From assembly GCF_014207965.1 (NCBI RefSeq), contig NZ_JACHLM010000004.1, forward strand, positions 124,001 to 188,000: 64,000 bases of DNA. The letters run 5' to 3'. Positions 13,794-58,994 of the stretch are shown here, piece after piece (position 1 is the first letter of the stretch; each line of letters opens with the position of its first letter). Below the pieces are notes generated by a model. The model was not told the origin of the DNA. It searched no databases and saw only the letters and a list, made by a program, of their open reading frames with translations. This DNA comes from Brevundimonas bullata (GTDB taxonomy: Bacteria; Pseudomonadota; Alphaproteobacteria; Caulobacterales; Caulobacteraceae). Position numbers and translations under genes: made by a program.

Positions 13794-14702
13794 TCAGATG
13801 GCCGCGACGGTGAAGGTCAGGGTGTCGCTGTACTCGCCTGCCCTCTTGCCCGACACATCGCCGATCCGCACGGTCAGCGGATAGTCGTCACGACGCGCCG
13901 TCTGGGACACGACATTGATCGTGTCCGTCCGCTGCAGATTGATGTCCTGAGCCCCGACCTTGAGGTTGTAGTCGACATACCAGGCCGTCGCGCCCTGGCG
14001 CAGGCGTCCACGGTTGGCCGAAGTGACGGAGACGCGGTAACCGCCCGTGCTGTGCACATAAAGGGCGGTGTTCAGCGGGCGCGGCCCCTCGGTCAGTTCG
14101 CCCAGGTCGATGACAGGCGTGCCGTTAGGACGCGAAAACTCGCCCTTGAGGCCTATGGCGGCGGCGGCGGCGAGATCAAGCACCAGAGTCACCGGACGCG
14201 TGGCGTGGATCGTCCCGTTGGCCTGCTCTACGAACAGGTTGGCGACCTGAGTATATCGCCCCTGAGCCACGCCCGCCTCAGGGAAGGCGGCGAAGGTGAT
14301 GCGGGCCGGCAGTTGTTCGCCCTGCTTGATCGAGACGCTGGTCCCGTTCCGCCTTGCGCTCTCGCCTGATCGCGGCGTGATATCGACGCCGCCGTAATCG
14401 ACATCGACAAGCGTATAGCGCACGCGGTTGGCGCCGCCCGGGGTCGTCAGACCGAACGCTTCGGCTTGCAGCGAGGCCAGGATATTGCCGTTGCAGGGGG
14501 TCCTCCCGCTGTTCACCAGCAGGACGTCGAAGGTGCGCTGGGCGATTTCGTCTTCCAGGGGGTTGTAGCGGATCACCCACTGATCCAGCGCCGGCTGGAT
14601 CGTCAGATTGCACTTGTCCTGGGCCGAGGCTTGACCGGGGATCAGCGCCAACAGACCAAGGGCCGCAACGGCGGCGAAGGATTTCGAGAGGGTGGAGACC
14701 AT
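13794..14702 (-). CDS. Spore coat U domain fimbrial protein (minor pilin or tip adhesin)
   Basis: 302 aa, about twice the size of a single-domain pilin. A signal peptide ends near QASAQ. The first domain carries Cys residues in KCNLTI and TPCNGN. A second SCPU-like domain follows, with GTPVIDLGELTEGP and the terminal donor-type strand AGEYSDTLTFTVAAI. The double-domain layout and last position in the operon suggest a tip adhesin or stalk-end subunit. ATG 14702 has a GGAAGG Shine-Dalgarno; ATG 14723 would overlap the usher stop and has none. Confidence 0.75.
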   Translation of the reverse strand: MVSTLSKSFAAVAALGLLALIPGQASAQDKCNLTIQPALDQWVIRYNPLEDEIAQRTFDVLLVNSGRTPCNGNILASLQAEAFGLTTPGGANRVRYTLVDVDYGGVDITPRSGESARRNGTSVSIKQGEQLPARITFAAFPEAGVAQGRYTQVANLFVEQANGTIHATRPVTLVLDLAAAAAIGLKGEFSRPNGTPVIDLGELTEGPRPLNTALYVHSTGGYRVSVTSANRGRLRQGATAWYVDYNLKVGAQDINLQRTDTINVVSQTARRDDYPLTVRIGDVSGKRAGEYSDTLTFTVAAI

Positions 14703-14719
14703 GATCGTCTTCCTTCCGT

Positions 14720-17314
14720 TCATTGGTCGGTGATGTCGACCGACACGGCGACAGTCTTGAGATCCAGCAGACCTTCGTTGTCGGCTGGAACCGTGAATTC
14801 GAACCCGGCGGCGGGCGAAGTGAAGAGCTCGACCCGATAGGTCTTGCCCGGGATCAGCTTCTGAATGGCGAACCGCCCGACCGAGTTGGTGAAGAACAGC
14901 TCCGGCTCGGCCGTGGGATCATCAAGCAAACGAACGCGACCCGAGATCAACGCCGCTGGCTTGCCGGCGTTGCCGACCATCCGGCCCAGAGCCGAGACGA
15001 AGGCGTCGCTGCCGACCTGGATGGCGTAGCCGCTCTTGTAGCCGGGCCGAACGCGCCGCACGCCTTCGCCGATGTCGTAGCCCGGCGGCACGCCCAGCAC
15101 GTCATAACGCACCGACTGATCGACATAGGAGGTCAGGGTGTTGGACACCGCCGGCCCCAGGGCGCCGCTGCGCGAGGTGTAGTTTCCGCGCTCGAACGAC
15201 TCGCCGACGATCACCGGCTTATCTTCCAGCGACTGGTGCGGATAAAGAATGGCGAAGCTGTCGTAGATGTTGCGCCCGATGGCGACCTTGCCGCCCGCCG
15301 TCGAGATCGAGGCGCCGACGCGCAGCGAGGTCACCTGCTCGTCGGTGATGTTGCTGAAGCTCTGACCGAACGTCGTATGCGTCAGGCTGGCGTCGAAGCG
15401 GTTGGCGATATAGTCGAGCTGGCCGCTGAGCGTGCCGGGCCCGTCGTCATAGGTCGAAGCCACCGAGTAGCCGAACGATCCCACGCGGTTCTCAGGTGAC
15501 TGCTGGAAGCGCAGGCTGCCGCTATTGCGCGCCGAACTGTATCGAGCCTCGCCACGGCGGTCGTAGCGCGGCTGCCAGACCAGGGCGACGGTCACGCCGA
15601 CGCCGTCGCTGGAGCCCGTGCCGAAGTTACCGCCATAGTCGACCCATTCGGCACCAACCTGAACACTCCACTCCGGAGCGAAGCGATAGGAGCTGACAGC
15701 ACTCAGCGAATAGGAGTCGTTGGTAGTCCCGCGCCCCAGCCGGTAGGAAGCGCTAGCCGTTGCATTCCAGGCATCGGAAAACTGGTGCGAATAAGCGCCG
15801 GTGAGCGCCCAGGACGTCGAGTTATCTCCGAACGCATTGCCCAGGGTGGCGTAGTCCTCAGACGTATAGTCGGCCACGACCGTCCAACTGTCGTAGGTAC
15901 CGCCCAGATCGACGAAGTGGTCATAGCTCAGCGCATAGGCGTAACCTGCCCCCCTGTCAGCGTTGCTGGCAGAGGCGTTCAGTTGCAGACGCGCACCGTT
16001 GCGCAGAATGAACTGGGTCTGGCCGGTGACGTTCTGAACATCTTCGGACGCCTGCAAGCCCAAGCCGACGGCTGGCTTGTTCAAGAAGGCCTTACGCCAG
16101 AATCCGCTGAAGGCCAGCGAGCCGTCGGAATAGTCGGGCGAACCGAACGTCCCGGAATTGGTCACGCCCAGATAGGCGCCGTACTCGTAATCCCCCGGCT
16201 CCAGTTCGATCGAGTCCAGATAGGCGCTGTAGGACACCATCTCGCGGCGACCTGACTCGTTCTGGATTTCCAACTGGACGTCGTTCGAGCCTGTTTGGAG
16301 CGGCAGATTGGACAGGTCGTACTGGCCTGGGTCCAGCTTGAACTCACGCACGAAGACGCCGTTGCGCAACACGCGCACGGTTGAGGATTCCTGCAGCACG
16401 AGCTGGCGACCGCCAGACAAGCCGTTGTTGCGGAAGCTATTGAAGCGTTGCGTCTGGCGCGTCACGCCAACGCCGCCCATTTCGGCGAAGCCCTGACGAC
16501 CGCGTGTCTCGACGTTCAGATCGCCCAGAAACCAGCGACGGTACTCAGCGGGTTGATCGAAAACGAAGCGAGCGTAGCGGCGCTCGATCTCGTAATCGCC
16601 CGAAGATTGATCTTCGCGTCCTTGAACATCGGCCTCCAGCACCACGCCCTTGTAGCGGACGGCGCCGTTCAAGAAGACGCTGGGCGAGGTCACGTCGCCC
16701 GTCGACTGGCGTCGCGACACGGCCAGGTTGGTGTTCAGATAGGCGCTGAAGTTTTCGGGCGCCTCTCCCGGCTCCTCGGGCCGACCGCCCTGGAACAGGG
16801 ATTCGACCGAGCGTTTGGTCGGATCGATGCGCAGCACCAGAACCGCCAGCTGATCCGGGTCATAGTCCAGCGAAATGCCGGTGGCGTTGATCTCCTCCGG
16901 GGCGAAGGACTCCACGCCTTCCAGTTGCGTCTTCAGCTCGGCTTGCGCCTCGGGCGTCAGCAGGGGATCGATCAGCGCCCGGAACCCGGCGCTCTCGACG
17001 ATGAAGCGGTCGTCGCGCGTCAGCAGCACCGGCATTTCGCCCAGCACGCGACGGTTGAAGTTCAGCGGCACCGTCATGGCGATGTCGCGGTCGTAGGGAT
17101 TGATGTTGGGGCGCGTCTGCGGCGCAGCAGCAGAAGCGGGCGCGCTCGGCGCCGGGGCCACGGCCTCCGACGCCTGCTCTGCCGCCTGAGAGGCAGCCTG
17201 CATCAAGCCCACGACATGGGCGTGCGCCCAACCACTGGGCGTCGCCATGACCGCGGTCGCCAGCACGAGCTTTGAGGCTGCGCCCCGCAGCGTCTTTCTT
17301 CCGGCCGTCGTCAT
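14720..17314 (-). CDS. Outer membrane usher protein (FimD/PapC family)
   Basis: 864 aa, the usual usher size. A signal peptide leads into the N-terminal chaperone-binding domain. The usher pore region contains FNSFRNNGLSGGRQLVLQESSTVRVLRNGVFV and QYDLSNLPLQTGSNDVQLEI, hallmarks of the 24-strand barrel before the plug. C-terminal beta-sandwich domains follow, with LLDLKTVAV-like carboxypeptidase regulatory repeats. It secretes and assembles pilin-chaperone complexes. It overlaps the chaperone gene by 4 bases. Confidence 0.93.
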   Translation of the reverse strand: MTTAGRKTLRGAASKLVLATAVMATPSGWAHAHVVGLMQAASQAAEQASEAVAPAPSAPASAAAPQTRPNINPYDRDIAMTVPLNFNRRVLGEMPVLLTRDDRFIVESAGFRALIDPLLTPEAQAELKTQLEGVESFAPEEINATGISLDYDPDQLAVLVLRIDPTKRSVESLFQGGRPEEPGEAPENFSAYLNTNLAVSRRQSTGDVTSPSVFLNGAVRYKGVVLEADVQGREDQSSGDYEIERRYARFVFDQPAEYRRWFLGDLNVETRGRQGFAEMGGVGVTRQTQRFNSFRNNGLSGGRQLVLQESSTVRVLRNGVFVREFKLDPGQYDLSNLPLQTGSNDVQLEIQNESGRREMVSYSAYLDSIELEPGDYEYGAYLGVTNSGTFGSPDYSDGSLAFSGFWRKAFLNKPAVGLGLQASEDVQNVTGQTQFILRNGARLQLNASASNADRGAGYAYALSYDHFVDLGGTYDSWTVVADYTSEDYATLGNAFGDNSTSWALTGAYSHQFSDAWNATASASYRLGRGTTNDSYSLSAVSSYRFAPEWSVQVGAEWVDYGGNFGTGSSDGVGVTVALVWQPRYDRRGEARYSSARNSGSLRFQQSPENRVGSFGYSVASTYDDGPGTLSGQLDYIANRFDASLTHTTFGQSFSNITDEQVTSLRVGASISTAGGKVAIGRNIYDSFAILYPHQSLEDKPVIVGESFERGNYTSRSGALGPAVSNTLTSYVDQSVRYDVLGVPPGYDIGEGVRRVRPGYKSGYAIQVGSDAFVSALGRMVGNAGKPAALISGRVRLLDDPTAEPELFFTNSVGRFAIQKLIPGKTYRVELFTSPAAGFEFTVPADNEGLLDLKTVAVSVDITDQ

Positions 17315-18159
17315 CGTGCGAATCGCACGCTCACCGGCTTGGCCGGATCCAGCTCGACACCGGTCGGCACCTTGAACGTCCGCTTGCCGCCTAGGGGAGC
17401 CAGGTAGCCGACGCCGACTATCTGCGAGATTTCATCGCCAGTGAATTCACGATGGAAGGGCTGCCCAGCCTTGTCCGTCCCCTCCATGATCCAGGTCGCG
17501 CCGCTCATCAGCGCGTAGCGCTTGCCGGTATTGGCGACCACGATCTCGACGCCGGGCTGCGCAGGGGGCGGCGGCGAGGCTTCACCGCCGCTGAGGCTGG
17601 GATCGACCTCGGGCTCCGGCGGGGTGACCATGGCCGGCACAGCAGACAAAACTTCGACCTTGGGCTGAGCACCAGGCGGGGCCACGACGATCAGCGCTTT
17701 CATCGTATAGAGAACCTGAACCGAGAGCGAACCGCCGCTGTCGGGCGTGGTCGGATCGACCTGCACAGGCAGCTGCTTCACCCACAGGTAGTAGGCGCTC
17801 GAGGATTCGATGGTTGGTTCGCCGACCCACTGCACACGCACGACCTGACGGCCGCCGACCGGCACCAAGCCCTGCGGCGGGAAGACCAGGAAATCCTCGT
17901 CAGCCGGCGTCTCGACGATATTGCCGTCGGCGTCTATATCCATCCGCGTAATCAGGGTTTCGAACGGCAGAGCCGCCGAGCCGACATTGCCGACCTCGAT
18001 CCGGGCCGCCGAACCGGCGCCCGTCGTGGTCAGTTCCGACACCATGGGCGAGACGCGCATGGCCCAGGCGGCTGACATGACCAGCAGACCCGCAACAAGC
18101 CCGCCGGCCAGGGCGGCCAGGCGGCTGCCGCGCATGAAGCGAAAATCAGATCGCAGCAT
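17311..18159 (-). CDS. Fimbrial assembly chaperone (PapD-like)
   Basis: 282 aa. A signal peptide precedes the PapD-type immunoglobulin domains: MRVSPMVSELTTTGAG (G1-type edge), ARIEVGNVG, a FLVFPPQGLVPVGGRQVVRVQWVG motif that is the conserved chaperone core, and a C-terminal domain ending in SVRFAR. It binds unfolded pilins in the periplasm by donor-strand complementation and passes them to the usher. ATG 18159 is chosen because GGGGGAG lies upstream; an adjacent TTG would add one residue. It starts after an intergenic terminator hairpin. Confidence 0.9.
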   Translation of the reverse strand: MLRSDFRFMRGSRLAALAGGLVAGLLVMSAAWAMRVSPMVSELTTTGAGSAARIEVGNVGSAALPFETLITRMDIDADGNIVETPADEDFLVFPPQGLVPVGGRQVVRVQWVGEPTIESSSAYYLWVKQLPVQVDPTTPDSGGSLSVQVLYTMKALIVVAPPGAQPKVEVLSAVPAMVTPPEPEVDPSLSGGEASPPPPAQPGVEIVVANTGKRYALMSGATWIMEGTDKAGQPFHREFTGDEISQIVGVGYLAPLGGKRTFKVPTGVELDPAKPVSVRFAR

Positions 18160-18288
18160 CAATCATTACTCCCCCGAGGCCGTCCGCGGACCGCCGTCTC
18201 AAGAACTCAGTGCAGGCCAGGCCCGCCGCCGCAACGCCCATTGCGCGCGGCGAACAGCCTAACGAGCAATGGTCACTGAAACGAAAAC

Positions 18289-18334: not shown

Positions 18335-19138
18335 TTACTGAGCAGCGATGAGCACCTGGAAGGAGCTCGTGTAGTTGCCGGCCAGCAGGGCTTGGGTCGG
18401 CTGCGGCACCAGAACCGTCAGGTTCATCGGCGACTTCCAAGCGCCGTTGGCTTGGTCCTCGGTCAGATCGCCTTCAACCATGGTCAGGGTGCGGCCGATG
18501 GCGGCGCCGCCGCCAGCAACCTGCGAAGCGCCCTGATACGAAGCCGTCACGCGGTACGGCAGCTTGTTGGTGAAGACGGCGTTGTCGAAGCCCGAGTTCG
18601 AGTTGTTGGTCATGTCAGCCACGGCGCGGCTCAGCGTGACCGTGTTGTTGGTGTTGCAGCCGGCCAGGTTGGTCTGGATCGTCAGGACGGCCGGAGCGAC
18701 CATGGTGAAGGCGGCGTTCGGGCCGGTGTTGTCGCCAGCGTAGATGCCCAGGGTGCCGAAGTCGAAGTCCTCGGTGCTGTTGTCGCCCGAGTAATAGACG
18801 CAGTCCTTCGAAACAGCGTCCTTCAGCGAGAAGGTAGCGCTGTCATTGCCGACGGCGCCCACGTCACCGGCCGACAAGCCGACAGCGTGCCAAGCCGACT
18901 GCTGAGCACCGCCATTGGCGGCGCGCAGGCCGTTAGCCAAGGTTTCAGCAAACGCCTGGCCGGGGCCAGCATTGGCCGACGGAACGTTGACGGTCGAACC
19001 CGGCGTGATCACGCCGAAGAAGTTGGTGCTGTTGTTGGTGTACTGGCCCTTGTTGATGACCTGCACGGCTTGAGCCGAAGCGGCCGAGGCGGTCAGGGCG
19101 GCGACGGCGACGCCGGCCAGAATCGAAGCGATTTTCAT
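18335..19138 (-). CDS. Putative major fimbrial subunit
   Basis: 267 aa. A clear signal peptide with cleavage after ASAQA is followed by a Thr/Asn/Ala-rich beta protein. Two Cys residues sit in KDCVYY and AGCNTN. The C-terminal strand is LAGNYTSSFQVLIAAQ, the alternating hydrophobic pattern of pilins. ATG 19138 is chosen for its Shine-Dalgarno (TGGAG) and the signal peptide; the longer frame adds an unlikely N-terminus. Position between the first pilin and the chaperone, with a terminator after it, suggests the abundant subunit. I do not recognise an exact named homologue. Confidence 0.7.
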   Translation of the reverse strand: MKIASILAGVAVAALTASAASAQAVQVINKGQYTNNSTNFFGVITPGSTVNVPSANAGPGQAFAETLANGLRAANGGAQQSAWHAVGLSAGDVGAVGNDSATFSLKDAVSKDCVYYSGDNSTEDFDFGTLGIYAGDNTGPNAAFTMVAPAVLTIQTNLAGCNTNNTVTLSRAVADMTNNSNSGFDNAVFTNKLPYRVTASYQGASQVAGGGAAIGRTLTMVEGDLTEDQANGAWKSPMNLTVLVPQPTQALLAGNYTSSFQVLIAAQ

Positions 19139-19395
19139 AGGAATTCTCCAGGTGAGGTTCTGACGAAACTTGTCGACCGAGATGAACAAGCTCCCCCGAT
19201 CTGCAAACAACATAACAAAACGTAAAAATACAAGTCAACGGAAAATACCGTCGTTAGGCATGATTGTGTCGATTCAACTCGTAGGCGAGAAATATATTTT
19301 CCACCTTATACGCAGAAGGCGATCGCCCAACACATGAGCGATCGCTTGATTTACATAAGATTTGATCTTTATAGTTAAGCTTATTGCTTTAACTA

Positions 19396-19986
19396 CTACA
19401 CGCGCGGCGCCAACGTGATGTTGAGAACCTCCGAATACTCGCCCGCAAGCAAACCCGCTTCAGTCGGTCGGTTCGTGAGAATCCGGATGCGGCCGCCGCC
19501 CTGGGCGATGCCCTCGCCGCTGCTCAGCGTCTTCTTGGCGACCAGGTTTTCGCTGGCGAAGGTCCCGCTCAAGACCGCCGGGATCGGGTTGATCGTCGGA
19601 ATGGCGACGTTCAGCGTGTAACCCAGCCGTCCCGCGAACGGCCCTTCGCCGCGCGGCTTGTTGACGTGCGCCAGGCCGCCGCCTTGCGACTGGAAGCTGA
19701 TGTCGAACGGGACATTGCAGGCCAGACCGAAATCGGCCTCGACCTGCTGGCCGCCCGTCAGTTCGCCGAAGTCGATGTCGCCGCCGCCCGACAGACGGCA
19801 GCTGGCGGTGATCTTGCCCTTGACGATGACGTCCAGGCTGCTCGCCGAGCCGCTGTCGCTAACGGTTTCGGCAGAAGCCGCCGTGACGGTGGTCGCCGCC
19901 AGCACCAGAGCCATCAGGCCGGCCGCTTGCGCCATCGAACGCACCGTCGCGCGCTTCCCCTCGGAAGTGGTCAGAAACAAGCCCAC
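19396..19986 (-). CDS. Fimbrial protein, spore coat U/pilin type
   Basis: 196 aa from a GTG at 19986 with AGGGGAGG seven bases upstream. The signal peptide ends near ASAE. The mature part has ITASCRLSGGGDIDFGELTGGQ and a second Cys in LACNVPF, the disulfide arrangement of SCPU pilins. The C-terminal strand GEYSEVLNITLAPRV is a donor-strand motif. It is the promoter-proximal gene of the pilus locus and has a CtrA-type box upstream. Confidence 0.8.
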   Translation of the reverse strand: MGLFLTTSEGKRATVRSMAQAAGLMALVLAATTVTAASAETVSDSGSASSLDVIVKGKITASCRLSGGGDIDFGELTGGQQVEADFGLACNVPFDISFQSQGGGLAHVNKPRGEGPFAGRLGYTLNVAIPTINPIPAVLSGTFASENLVAKKTLSSGEGIAQGGGRIRILTNRPTEAGLLAGEYSEVLNITLAPRV

Positions 19987-20123
19987 TATTCGCCTCCCCT
20001 AGCCGCAACTCGCGGCTCCCCCGCCACCAGGAGGGGGTTCGTAGGTCAGCGTTCCAAGAGCCATGCCATCCCGAAATGGCACACCCCCTCAGCGGGCGCA
20101 GCGTCAGCCCCTCGCCGCAAGGG

Positions 20124-20139
20124 TTAATGAAACGTTAAC
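20124..20139. promoter_or_regulatory. CtrA-type binding box upstream of pilus operon
   Basis: TTAATGAAACGTTAAC is an exact match to TTAA-N7-TTAAC, the binding motif of the cell-cycle regulator CtrA. It lies 138 bases upstream of the first pilin start codon and downstream of the convergently placed glcB stop. The pilin operon is therefore the only reasonable target. Confidence 0.65.
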
Positions 20140-20220
20140 GGACGCGGTTCTACGAGCGCCGTTAAGGTTTGACAAGCTTTCGCTTCATTTTGGGACAACG
20201 TCGAAATTTGCGTTGAGAAA

Positions 20221-22374
20221 TCAACCCGCCTTGGCGCGACGCCGCCAGGCGGTCAGCAGGTGTTCGGTATAGCCGTTGGGCTGCTCGCGCCCCTTGAACA
20301 CCAAATCGCAGGCGGCATTCCACGCGGGGCCGTCAAAGGCCGGCGCCAGCGGGCGATAGACGGGATCGCCCGCGTTCTGACGATCCACCACGACGGCCAT
20401 CCGCTCCAGCGCCGCCCTCACCTCGCCTTCCGTGACCACGCCGTGGCGTAGCCAGTTGGCCAGATGCTGGCTGGAAATGCGCAGCGTGGCCCGGTCCTCC
20501 ATCAGGCCGACGTCGTGGATGTCCGGCACCTTGGAGCAGCCGACGCCCTGATCGATCCAGCGCACGACATAGCCAAGGATGCCCTGGGCGTTGTTGTCCA
20601 GCTCCTGACAGATCTCCGCCGCGCTCGGGGCCTCCGTCGCGAACGGGGGAGTCAGCAGAGCCGTCAGTCCCGTGGCGGGGCGCGCGGCGATCTCGGCCTG
20701 ACGCGCCCAGACGTCGACCTCATGATAATGCAGGGCGTGCAGGGCCGCCGCCGTCGGCGACGGGACCCAGGCGGTCGAGGCCCCGGCGCGCGGATGCCCC
20801 GCCTTGGTCGCCAGCATCTCACCCATGCGGTCGGGCGCGGCCCACATGCCCTTGCCGATCTGGGCGCGTCCAGTCAGACCCGCTTTCAGGCCGATATCGA
20901 CGTTGCGGTCCTCGTAGGCCTTGATCCAGCCGGTGTTGCGGATGGCCTCTTTACGAACGACCGGCCCGCCTTCCATCACCGAATGGATCTCGTCGCCGGT
21001 GCGATCGAGGAAGCCGGTGTTGATGAAGGCGACCCTGCCCTTCGCCGCCGCGATGCAGTTGGCCAGGTTGACGCTGGTGCGCCGCTCCTCGTCCATGATG
21101 CCCATCTTCAGCGTCAACGGCGGCAGCCCCACCATCTTCTCGACGGCGCCGAAGACGGCGTCGGCGAAGGCGACCTCCGCCGAGCCGTGCATCTTGGGCC
21201 GCACCACATAGATGGAGCCGGCGGAGCTGTTGCGCTGATCCGCCGGACGCTTCAGGTCGTGCAGGCCGATCAGGCCGGTCATGGCGATGTCGATCAGGCT
21301 CTCGGGGACCTCGCGCCCCTCCCCGTCCAGCACCGCATCGGTGGTCAGATGCAGGCCGACGTTGCGCACCATCAGCAGGCTGCGCCCCCTCAGAGCGAAG
21401 GCCGATCCGTCCGGCGCCGTGTAGGAACGGTCGCCGTTCATGCGCCGCTGCATCGTCTGGCCGTCCTTGACGAAGCCCGCCGACAGGTCGCCGCGCATCA
21501 GGCCCAGCCAGTTGGCATAGACCAGCCGCTTGTCCTCGGCGTCCACCGCCGCGACGCTGTCCTCGGCGTCGGCGATCACCGACAGCGCCGCCTCGACGAC
21601 GACGTCGGCCACGCCCGCCGGATCGGTGCGCCCGATGGCATGGGCGCGGTCGATGACGATCTCCAGATGCAGGCCGTTGTGGCGCAGCAGGACGCCCGAG
21701 GGCGCCGCCGCCTCGCCCGCATGGCCGGCGAAGGCCGCCGCGCTCGCCAGGCCCGTTTCAATTCCGCCTTCCAGAGTGACGATCAGCCGCCCATGCTCGA
21801 CCCTGTATCCCGTCGCCTGGGCGTGCGAGCCCGCCCCCAGAGGCGCCGCCTGATCCAGCAGGGCGCGGGCGCGGGCGATGACCTTGGCGCCACGCTCGGG
21901 ATCATAGCCGCCGCCCTTTGGCGCCTCGCCCAGCGCGTCCGTGCCGTACAGGGCGTCATACAGACTGCCCCAGCGCGCATTGGCGGCGTTCAGGAGATAG
22001 CGGGCGTTGGTCAGGGGCACGACCAACTGCGGCCCGGCCATGGTGGCGATCTCGGGATCGACATTGGCGGTTTCGGCGCGAACATCGGCCCGTTCTCGCT
22101 CGATGTAACCGATCTCGCGCAGGAAGGCCTGATAGGCCTCGGGGTCCGGCTGACCCGGATGGGCGCGGTGCCAGTCGTCCAGTTGGGCCTGAAGCTCGTC
22201 GCGGCGCGCCAATAGCGCCGGGTTCTTCGGCGCATGCTCCGCCAGCAGCCCCTCCACCCCGGCCCAGAAGGCGTCGGGCGCGACGCCCGTGCCCGGCGCG
22301 GCTTCGTCGCGGACGAAGGCGTCCAGCTCGGCGGCGACGCTCAGGCTTCCGTGACGGACATAGGTGGTGGACAT
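20221..22374 (-). CDS. glcB: Malate synthase G
   Basis: 717 aa, the normal size of the G isoform (about 720). It condenses glyoxylate with acetyl-CoA to malate in the glyoxylate bypass. The catalytic Arg is in [11 protein letters not shown], the general-base Asp in [13 protein letters not shown], and a conserved Cys in [23 protein letters not shown] 22374 is chosen because the frame upstream lacks family sequence and runs into the divergent LysR gene. A LysR regulator starts 103 bases away on the other strand. Confidence 0.95.
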
Positions 22375-22447
22375 GGCGACTCTCCCTTGAGCCTCAACCC
22401 TAGCGGGGCGCCCGCAACCTAGCCACGGCGAAGATCGACGGCTATCT

Positions 22448-22462
22448 TTGCCGAAAATGCAA
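22448..22462. promoter_or_regulatory. Candidate LysR-type regulator box
   Basis: TTGCCGAAAATGCAA has TTGC/GCAA dyad symmetry and fits T-N11-A, the LTTR box pattern. It lies 15 bases before the LysR start and 73 bases before the glcB start in the divergent promoter region. Confidence 0.45.
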
Positions 22463-22477
22463 TGACGAGACCGCGCC

Positions 22478-23368
22478 ATGCTGGCCGAGTATGAGATCTT
22501 CGTCCGGGCGCTGGAGGAAGGCAGCCTGTCCGCCGCCGCCCGCCGTCTGGACCTGTCGCCCGCCGTGGCCTCGCGCCGGCTGGCGCGACTGGAGGACCGG
22601 CTGGGGGTAAGGCTGATCGAGCGCACCTCGCGGCGGCTGGCCCCGACCGAGGCCGGGCGGCTGGTCTATGACCGCGCCATGCAGTTGCTGGACGGGGTCG
22701 AGGATCTGGAGGCCTTGGTGTCGCGCCGCACCACCCAGGCGCGCGGCTTGCTGCGGGTCTCGGCCCCGACCTCGTTCGGGCGGCGACGGCTGGCCCCGCT
22801 GCTGACGCCCTTCCTCGACGCCCATCCCCGGCTGACGCTGGAACTGAACCTCAGCGACGCCTTCGTCGACCTGATGGCCGAGGACGTGGACGTGGCTGTG
22901 CGCATCGGCAGCTATGAGGCGGGCGATCCCGCCATGCACCGCCTGGCCCCAAACCGCCGCGTCCTATGCGCTGCACCGTCCTATCTGGCCGAGCACGGCG
23001 CGCCGCAGACGCTGGACGACCTCCGCCATCACGCCCAGCTCGCGGCCGAGAACCAGTCGGCCTGGCGCCTGGAAGGCCCCGACGGCCCCGTCACCTTCCG
23101 CGCCCGCAGCCGGGTGCGGACCAATTCGTCAGAGGTGGCGCGTGAATTGGTTCTGGCCGGAGCCGGCGTCGCTCTGCGCTCGACCTGGGACGTGGGCGAG
23201 GAACTGCGCGACGGGCGCCTGCTGCGGGTCTTGCCGCAGTATGCGGGGGCCTCCGACGTAGCCGTCTTCGCCCTGACAGCCGGGCGGGCCCGCGCCGAAA
23301 ACCGGGTCCGGGCCTTTATCGACTTCCTGGCCGGCCTCTATGGCGATGTGCCAGAATGGGACAAATGA
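22478..23368 (+). CDS. LysR family transcriptional regulator
   Basis: 296 aa. An N-terminal winged helix-turn-helix ([36 protein letters not shown]) is followed by a substrate-binding domain with [14 protein letters not shown] and [15 protein letters not shown]. These are typical of the CrgA-like group. It is divergent from malate synthase G, and such arrangements usually mean autoregulation and control of the neighbour. The effector is not evident. Confidence 0.9.
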
Positions 23369-58969: not shown

Positions 58970-58994
58970 GATCTTTAAGTCAAGATTAAAGATC
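58970..58994. promoter_or_regulatory. Perfect inverted repeat in the divergent ABC/DUF2975-XRE promoter
   Basis: GATCTTTAA and TTAAAGATC, 9-bp perfect arms with a 7-base spacer. It lies 46 bases before the ABC start and 21 bases before the DUF2975 start, the position of an operator shared by both. Confidence 0.7.

Follow-up and report, generated by a model that had tools for sequence, protein, structure and literature searches.

The CtrA-type box located just upstream of a chaperone-usher (CU) pilus operon in Brevundimonas bullata can, in all, rather probably be explained as a CtrA operator placed within an RpoD-type promoter, where CtrA probably acts as a repressor. Control of this operon by CtrA is supported by comparison with related loci. 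The box lies at 20123-20139 of the window, i.e., of the whole stretch of 64,000 nucleotides that was analyzed, and the operon is read from the reverse strand.

The pilus operon and its CtrA-type box

The sequence GTTAATGAAACGTTAAC at 20123-20139 contains a perfect TTAA-N7-TTAA, and TTAA-N7-TTAAC is readable in it from either strand. The exact TTAA-N7-TTAAC box that had been described at 20124-20139 on the forward strand was confirmed, and a second match was found at 20123-20138 on the reverse strand because a G precedes the first. In the operon sense (reverse strand), the box reads GTTAACGTTTCATTAAC with a predicted position of +2 to +18, and its start is separated from the start of the first pilin gene by 153 bp. 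The two matches to TTAA-N7-TTAAC in the window compare with 0.01 expected from shuffles. The 3.69 Mb genome harbors seven such matches at six places, the pilus box being counted twice (reversed control, 1). The shorter TTAA-N7-TTAA is present at eight places (reversed control, 4), another of which is located upstream of a second CU operon (usher 28% identical). The genome also contains ctrA (412.2 bits, cut-off 350), with TTAA-N6-TTAA in its own upstream region. In the 3,015 bp surrounding the box, CcrM sites (GANTC) showed no enrichment (4 vs. 13.5 expected).

Other copies of the motif were observed as well. The exact 15-mer TTAACGTTTCATTAA occurs again at G000:C6:123266-123280 (L015, L051:3267-3281) between the ends of convergent ORFs, with no obvious downstream gene, and could be associated with a small RNA or be an orphan site. 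The other TTAA-N7-TTAA of the window, TTAAGTCAAGATTAA at 58975-58989, lies within a longer dyad before a DUF2975-like gene; its 15-mer was also present in several genus genomes among the matches listed, and it is possibly the operator of a different regulator. A perfect box, TTAAGGTCGTATTAA, by an SH3-domain gene (L009, C1:588215) likewise recurs in several genus genomes among the matches listed, and one more perfect box (L008, C1:110467) is positioned between cheA-like and single-domain response-regulator genes.

The operon extends from 19986 to 13794 in the order pilin, pilin-like protein, PapD-like chaperone, usher and SCPU-like tip protein. The first pilin gene (19396-19986) codes for 196 aa with a GTG start and a signal-peptide-like N-terminus, and the second, pilin-like gene (18335-19138) for 267 aa. 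The PapD-like chaperone (17311-18162) scored 20.3 bits against PF00345 (PapD_N), below the cut-off of 23; the outer-membrane usher (14720-17314) scored 27.1 bits against PF00577, exactly at the cut-off of 27.1; and the SCPU-like tip pilin (13794-14723) scored 20.2 bits against PF05229, below the cut-off of 22.4, reaching 22.8 bits once scored together with in-frame neighbors in the genome. The chaperone of the second operon, which is 33% identical to that of the window over 147 aa, passed PF00345 at 44.5 bits. Among named relatives, the usher is closest to one from Brevundimonas bullata (97% identical). With domain scores that are low, the assignment as a putative CU system is based on gene order and relatives. 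The same set of pilin, pilin-like protein, chaperone, usher and SCPU-like tip in one operon is found in SCPU-domain (Csu-like) CU pili, from which the window differs in that neither of its pilin-like proteins, scored individually, gave a Pfam or NCBIfam match.

The gene upstream of the operon and outside it, which marks the locus, codes for malate synthase G (20221-22626, reverse strand; NF002825, 1141.5 bits). It ends at 20221 and the pilin gene starts at 19986; since both flanking genes are on the reverse strand, the first pilin gene is indeed the only gene on the correct side of the box, as had been claimed. Directly 3' of this gene, an inverted repeat GTTAAGC/GCTTTAAC was noticed by eye at 19374-19393; it could act as a terminator or be a site of processing between the pilin genes. 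Before the second, pilin-like gene, the window contains TTGACT-N18-TATGTT with only a degenerate box (19209-19238); at L057, L059, L061 and L062, second boxes were seen by eye in the spacer/-10 of a TTGAC promoter before the corresponding gene.

Recurrence of the box upstream of usher genes

Of the 131 genomes of the genus, 49 contain matches to the usher, 70 in total. For the 68 located in other genomes, upstream DNA was taken for all but two that adjoin contig starts (G092, G067), and the resulting 66 stretches were combined with those of the two ushers of this genome, giving 68 stretches with a total of 412 kb. In these stretches, a spacing of k = 7 accounted for 34 occurrences of TTAA-Nk-TTAA, as compared with 0-3 for each of the remaining values of k between 1 and 24. 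The preliminary description would have been contradicted, by its own criterion, if related loci had lacked the box; the box was found to recur. The genus-wide rate of 734 boxes in 401 Mb (about 1.8 per Mb; reversed control, 313) predicts 0.75 boxes at k = 7 in the 68 stretches as against the 34 observed, with a Poisson P of about 1e-43 that overstates independence because the loci are related. The 34 boxes represent 25 distinct 15-mers. Two of these boxes, both in L109, correspond to a repeated element of the TTAAGCC type and probably do not mark promoters; they are included in the 34.

Six of the 68 stretches (L056, L058, L066, L068, L095 and L097) were too short to reach the promoter. Among the 62 evaluable ones, conservation of the motif at Brevundimonas pilus promoters amounted to a perfect box in 29 and none in 33. 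The perfect box was present in 13/21 stretches with usher identity of at least 46%, 11/16 at 30-45% and 5/25 below 30%, and was absent from 8/21, 5/16 and 20/25, respectively. All eight boxless stretches with usher identity of at least 46% carried near-boxes, namely, TTTA-N7-TTAA in L067, TTAA-N7-CTAA in L069-L073, and a 6-base spacing in L063 and L064. Comparison of these sequences indicates that the box upstream of ushers is not due to chance and that it recurs as a component of CU pilus promoters.

Within the same family, six further genera contributed 26 ushers from 24 genomes. Their 26 stretches contained TTAA-Nk-TTAA 17 times at k = 7 and no more than twice at each of the other spacings between 1 and 20. 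The 17 stretches with a box were distributed over only three of the six genera (15/19 in one, 1/3 and 1/1 in two more), the remaining three, with one stretch each, having none. These boxes represent only three distinct 15-mers, and therefore few independent events.

The exact 15-mer of the window was found at nine places in 8 of the 131 genus genomes, eight of the nine being at the malate-synthase/pilus junction. L085 of genome G032 (C1:2049208-2055808) has malate synthase (91%) and the promoter as in the window with a different CU operon behind them (usher 31% identical), an apparent cassette swap behind a retained promoter. L057 and L059-L062 have the same promoter with no match to malate synthase in the stretch examined.

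Promoter geometry and the sign of the proposed CtrA control

A -35 hexamer, TTGTCA (20170-20175, reverse strand), and a -10 hexamer, TAGAAC (20147-20152, reverse strand), with a spacer of 17 bases were predicted on the malate-synthase side of the box. TTGTCA-N17-TAGAAC (20175-20170, 20152-20147) is a predicted RpoD-type (housekeeping) promoter. In Caulobacter, 93% of RpoD motifs are reported to begin 34-37 bp before the start (PMC4287350); this distance, together with the -10/-35 elements, gives a predicted transcription start at 20140 on the reverse strand (plausible range, 20138-20141) and places the box at about +3 to +17. A promoter scan with an E. coli-like consensus did not list the promoter at 20170-20147, because the scan demands T at the last -10 position. 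TAGAAC was also considered as the -10 of a divergent promoter on the opposite strand, and this was dropped as TTG-N20-TA is fixed in the operon sense.

Of the 34 box sites, 12 have TTG-N20-TA precisely at -37 relative to the box, and 22 lack it at that position. Only two other offsets were seen, with 5 and 1 sites; the single match at -38 was L086, a locus of the window's class with a perfect box and the promoter one base off. Given a TA at -14, no TTG-to-TA distance in the range 14-26 other than this one was seen, and in 12/34 sites, including that of the window, the distance from the first base of the -10 to the beginning of the box is 14 bp. An ungapped comparison anchored on the box was made for ten loci of the window's class, from which L052 and L085 had been dropped for being nearly identical to the window, L067 for a mismatch in its box, L063 and L064 for their 6-base spacing, and L086 for its shifted promoter. 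The order in these loci was TTG, N20, TA, 12 bases and the box. The TTG of the -35, the TA of the -10 (10/10 loci compared), TTAA, one spacer T and TTAAC were invariant, and identity was at background in the upstream flank, the promoter spacer and the downstream flank (means of 5.1, 5.3 and 5.2 of 10, respectively). The eight bases between the -10 and the box had a mean of 6.4 of 10, slightly above background. Comparison of the loci shows conservation of the box, of its 7-base spacing and, in the window's class, of its fixed distance from the -35/-10 elements. Just upstream of the -35, alignment of eight loci of the window's sub-class revealed a further conserved element, TGTCCCAAAATG (20186-20197, reverse strand), a possible operator of a further regulator.

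Control of the pilus by CtrA, as put forward in the preliminary description, gained support from the recurrence of the box (34 vs. 0-3 in the genus, 17 vs. 0-2 in other genera), from the presence of ctrA in the genome and from Brevundimonas subvibrioides, in which mutation of the sciP box to GGCC-N7-GGCC is reported to abolish transcription (PMC7987155). The parallel with activation of pilA that it implied was not supported, as the box of the window lies just downstream of the conserved -35/-10, at the predicted start. The activating CtrA box of Caulobacter crescentus has the same half-sites and 7-base spacing, and ctrA is likewise present in the window's genome; the 5' base of the Caulobacter box, however, is near -35, whereas that of the window's box is predicted at about +3. 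The position of about -35 from an RpoD-type start, expected at an activated promoter, was thus not occupied by the box relative to the start predicted here. In Caulobacter pilA, which codes for a Tad/type IV pilin, a pilin gene is under CtrA-type boxes as in the window, although the pilus is unrelated; site 1 at -35 is described as activating and the upstream sites as repressing (PMC11264516), whereas the window has a single box at the predicted start.

The arrangement can also be compared with that of the CtrA-repressed Caulobacter promoters ctrA P1, ctrA P3 and mipZ P2, in which a box or half-box lies over the start region, as is predicted here, and probably obstructs the polymerase instead of recruiting it (PMC4287350). 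According to the same source, repressing half-boxes overlie the -10, and the full box at -14 of ctrA P3 is considered likely to repress by its authors (PMC4287350). The window differs in that its target is a CU pilus operon and in that a full box is located just downstream of the predicted start, its own start at about +3 being further downstream than the repressing positions published for Caulobacter, with sites at -10 to -14 in those three promoters (PMC4287350). A box at the predicted start should occlude the polymerase, and therefore repression is favored over activation: CtrA probably represses the pilus operon of the window, opposite to its action on pilA.

Activation by CtrA, with the box acting as the -35 as at pilA and flagellar promoters, is the alternative that survives best and is in our view rather unlikely. 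It agrees with the report that most full CtrA boxes of Caulobacter are near -35 and activating (PMC4287350), and by eye some of the loci L074-L076 and L081, which belong to another class, have a -10-like sequence about 17-18 bp after the box. The window's class, however, shows no conservation at the would-be -10, the 29 bases after the box having a mean of 5.2 of 10, and its invariant TTG and TA are upstream of the box. In L074-L076 and L081, inspection by eye suggests that the second half-box might function as a -35, so that activation is possible there, and the sign of CtrA control may differ between pilus classes.

In the repression mechanism proposed for the window, the RpoD-type TTGTCA-N17-TAGAAC would start the pilus operon at about 20140 and the CtrA box would cover about +3 to +17, where phosphorylated CtrA would most likely block RNA polymerase. 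The pilus genes would be silent in CtrA-rich swarmer and late predivisional cells and would open once CtrA is cleared, in stalked and S-phase cells. In this scheme, we infer where transcription starts, that CtrA occupies the box, in which direction it regulates and in which phase of the cell cycle.

It is improbable that a different dimeric regulator owns the TTAA-N7-TTAA site or that several regulators share it. Within the closest sub-class, the spacer CGTTTCA is the same in seven of eight loci, beyond what TTAA-N7-TTAA itself requires, and MucR and SciP are described as acting at CtrA promoters of Caulobacter (PMC4287350). Against this stand the 25 different spacers among the 34 boxes, so that what the boxes share is precisely the CtrA consensus. 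We know of no other regulator for a TTAA-N7-TTAA site.

Leader RNA, neighboring elements and possible cell-cycle control of CU pili

The leader between the box and the pilin gene was found to be conserved in eight loci, with three well-supported hairpins before the ribosome-binding site. Alignment and folding showed a conserved block, TGTGCCATTTCGGGATGGCATGGCTCTTGGAACGCTGACC (20044-20083, reverse strand), comprising the first hairpin and a conserved unpaired stretch, followed by hairpin 2 (CCCCCTCCTGGTGGCGGGGG, 20018-20037, reverse strand), whose stem is changed on both sides between loci. Hairpin 3 (GCCGC..GCGGC, 20002-20016, reverse strand) was obtained by folding and directly precedes the ribosome-binding site; hairpins 1 and 3 showed one-sided changes or none between loci. 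RNAalifold gave -36.2 for the leader against a shuffled mean of -16.5 (sd 4.1), the lowest of 100 column shuffles being -32.1. The pilin leader (19984-20123, reverse strand), which contains the conserved unpaired CUCUUGGAACGCUGACC, is a possible cis-regulatory RNA. A comparison with Rfam gave no credible match, the one hit being a nematode snoRNA with 16.2 bits vs. a threshold of 52.

The conserved block also bears on a very improbable explanation, namely, that its GGCA(C/T)-N4-CTTGG is a sigma-54 promoter and that the box is the upstream site of the corresponding activator and not of CtrA. The spacing equals that of the Caulobacter RpoN motif GGCNC-N4-CTTGC (PMC4287350), and the block begins 48-68 bp after the box start. 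The window, however, reads GGCAT-N4-CTTGG; the base after TTG is G in 16/16 aligned class-A loci, and the C of the RpoN motif was never found there in 16 class-A and four class-C loci. Moreover, the block, scored as present at a match of at least 13 of 19, is behind the box in 17 of the 29 genus loci that have one and in none of the 17 from other genera; boxes present without it indicate that the box does not depend on the block, which is better explained as a transcribed hairpin with a conserved unpaired leader. The sigma-54 reading was rejected because the -12 C is absent, the block folds in the leader and boxes occur without it. TGGCAC-N5-TTGG as a -24/-12 promoter with the box as enhancer was rejected likewise, the -12 C being absent in 16/16 class-A loci. 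The RpoN pattern gave 16 matches in the genome vs. 13 in the reversed control. A chance match without function is scarcely credible: perfect boxes do occur at about 1.8 per Mb genus-wide, and the same 15 bases stand between convergent ORF ends at C6:123266, but the spacing control, the positional fixation and the retention across genomic contexts speak against it.

A palindrome resembling TACCC(C)AAATTGGGGA accompanies the box in the second operon of this genome and in pilus classes other than that of the window, its start preceding that of the box by 16-18, 26 or 44-52 bp. The sites are L050:2156-2173 (second CU operon), L069-L073, L078, L080, L098 and L103, as well as L116, L168-L180, L183 and L189. 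Among 37 loci with this TACCC-type element, a box with no more than one mismatch follows within 130 bp in 27 (L065, a member of the window's class, being one of them), compared with 86 of 4,000 random positions, for an element defined by eye after examples. Its best match in this genome is at the second pilus operon (one mismatch); three others have three mismatches, and the reversed control gave five in all.

To our knowledge, no cell-cycle control is known for SCPU-domain (Csu-like) CU pili. A literature search covering little of the subscription literature returned no report of CtrA control of chaperone-usher, spore coat protein U or Csu pili; nothing related was found for Brevundimonas with chaperone-usher, as judged from the listing, and no CtrA ChIP-seq in Brevundimonas by title among the matches listed. 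In the available portion of one paper, the usher and CtrA are mentioned in separate places (PMC4018554). The reported targets of CtrA control include flagella, chemotaxis and Tad pili (PMC7987155, PMC7200025), and the promoter of the holdfast inhibitor hfiA is reported to be bound by CtrA (PMC9980756). For the type IV pilus of B. subvibrioides, one CtrA site is described before one of the two pilA copies (PMC11264516).

It is tentatively suggested that many CU pili of the Caulobacteraceae may be coupled to the cell cycle by a CtrA box located at, or adjacent to, the transcription start, often beside a second palindromic operator specific to the pilus, TACCCNAAWTTGGGGA. CtrA would then be an off-switch in swarmers, and Tad and CU pili would be made in opposite phases. 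CU fibers under CtrA, probably with a sign opposite to that at pilA, would add a class of adhesins to the cell-cycle programme and would predict a pilus made by the sessile cell type.
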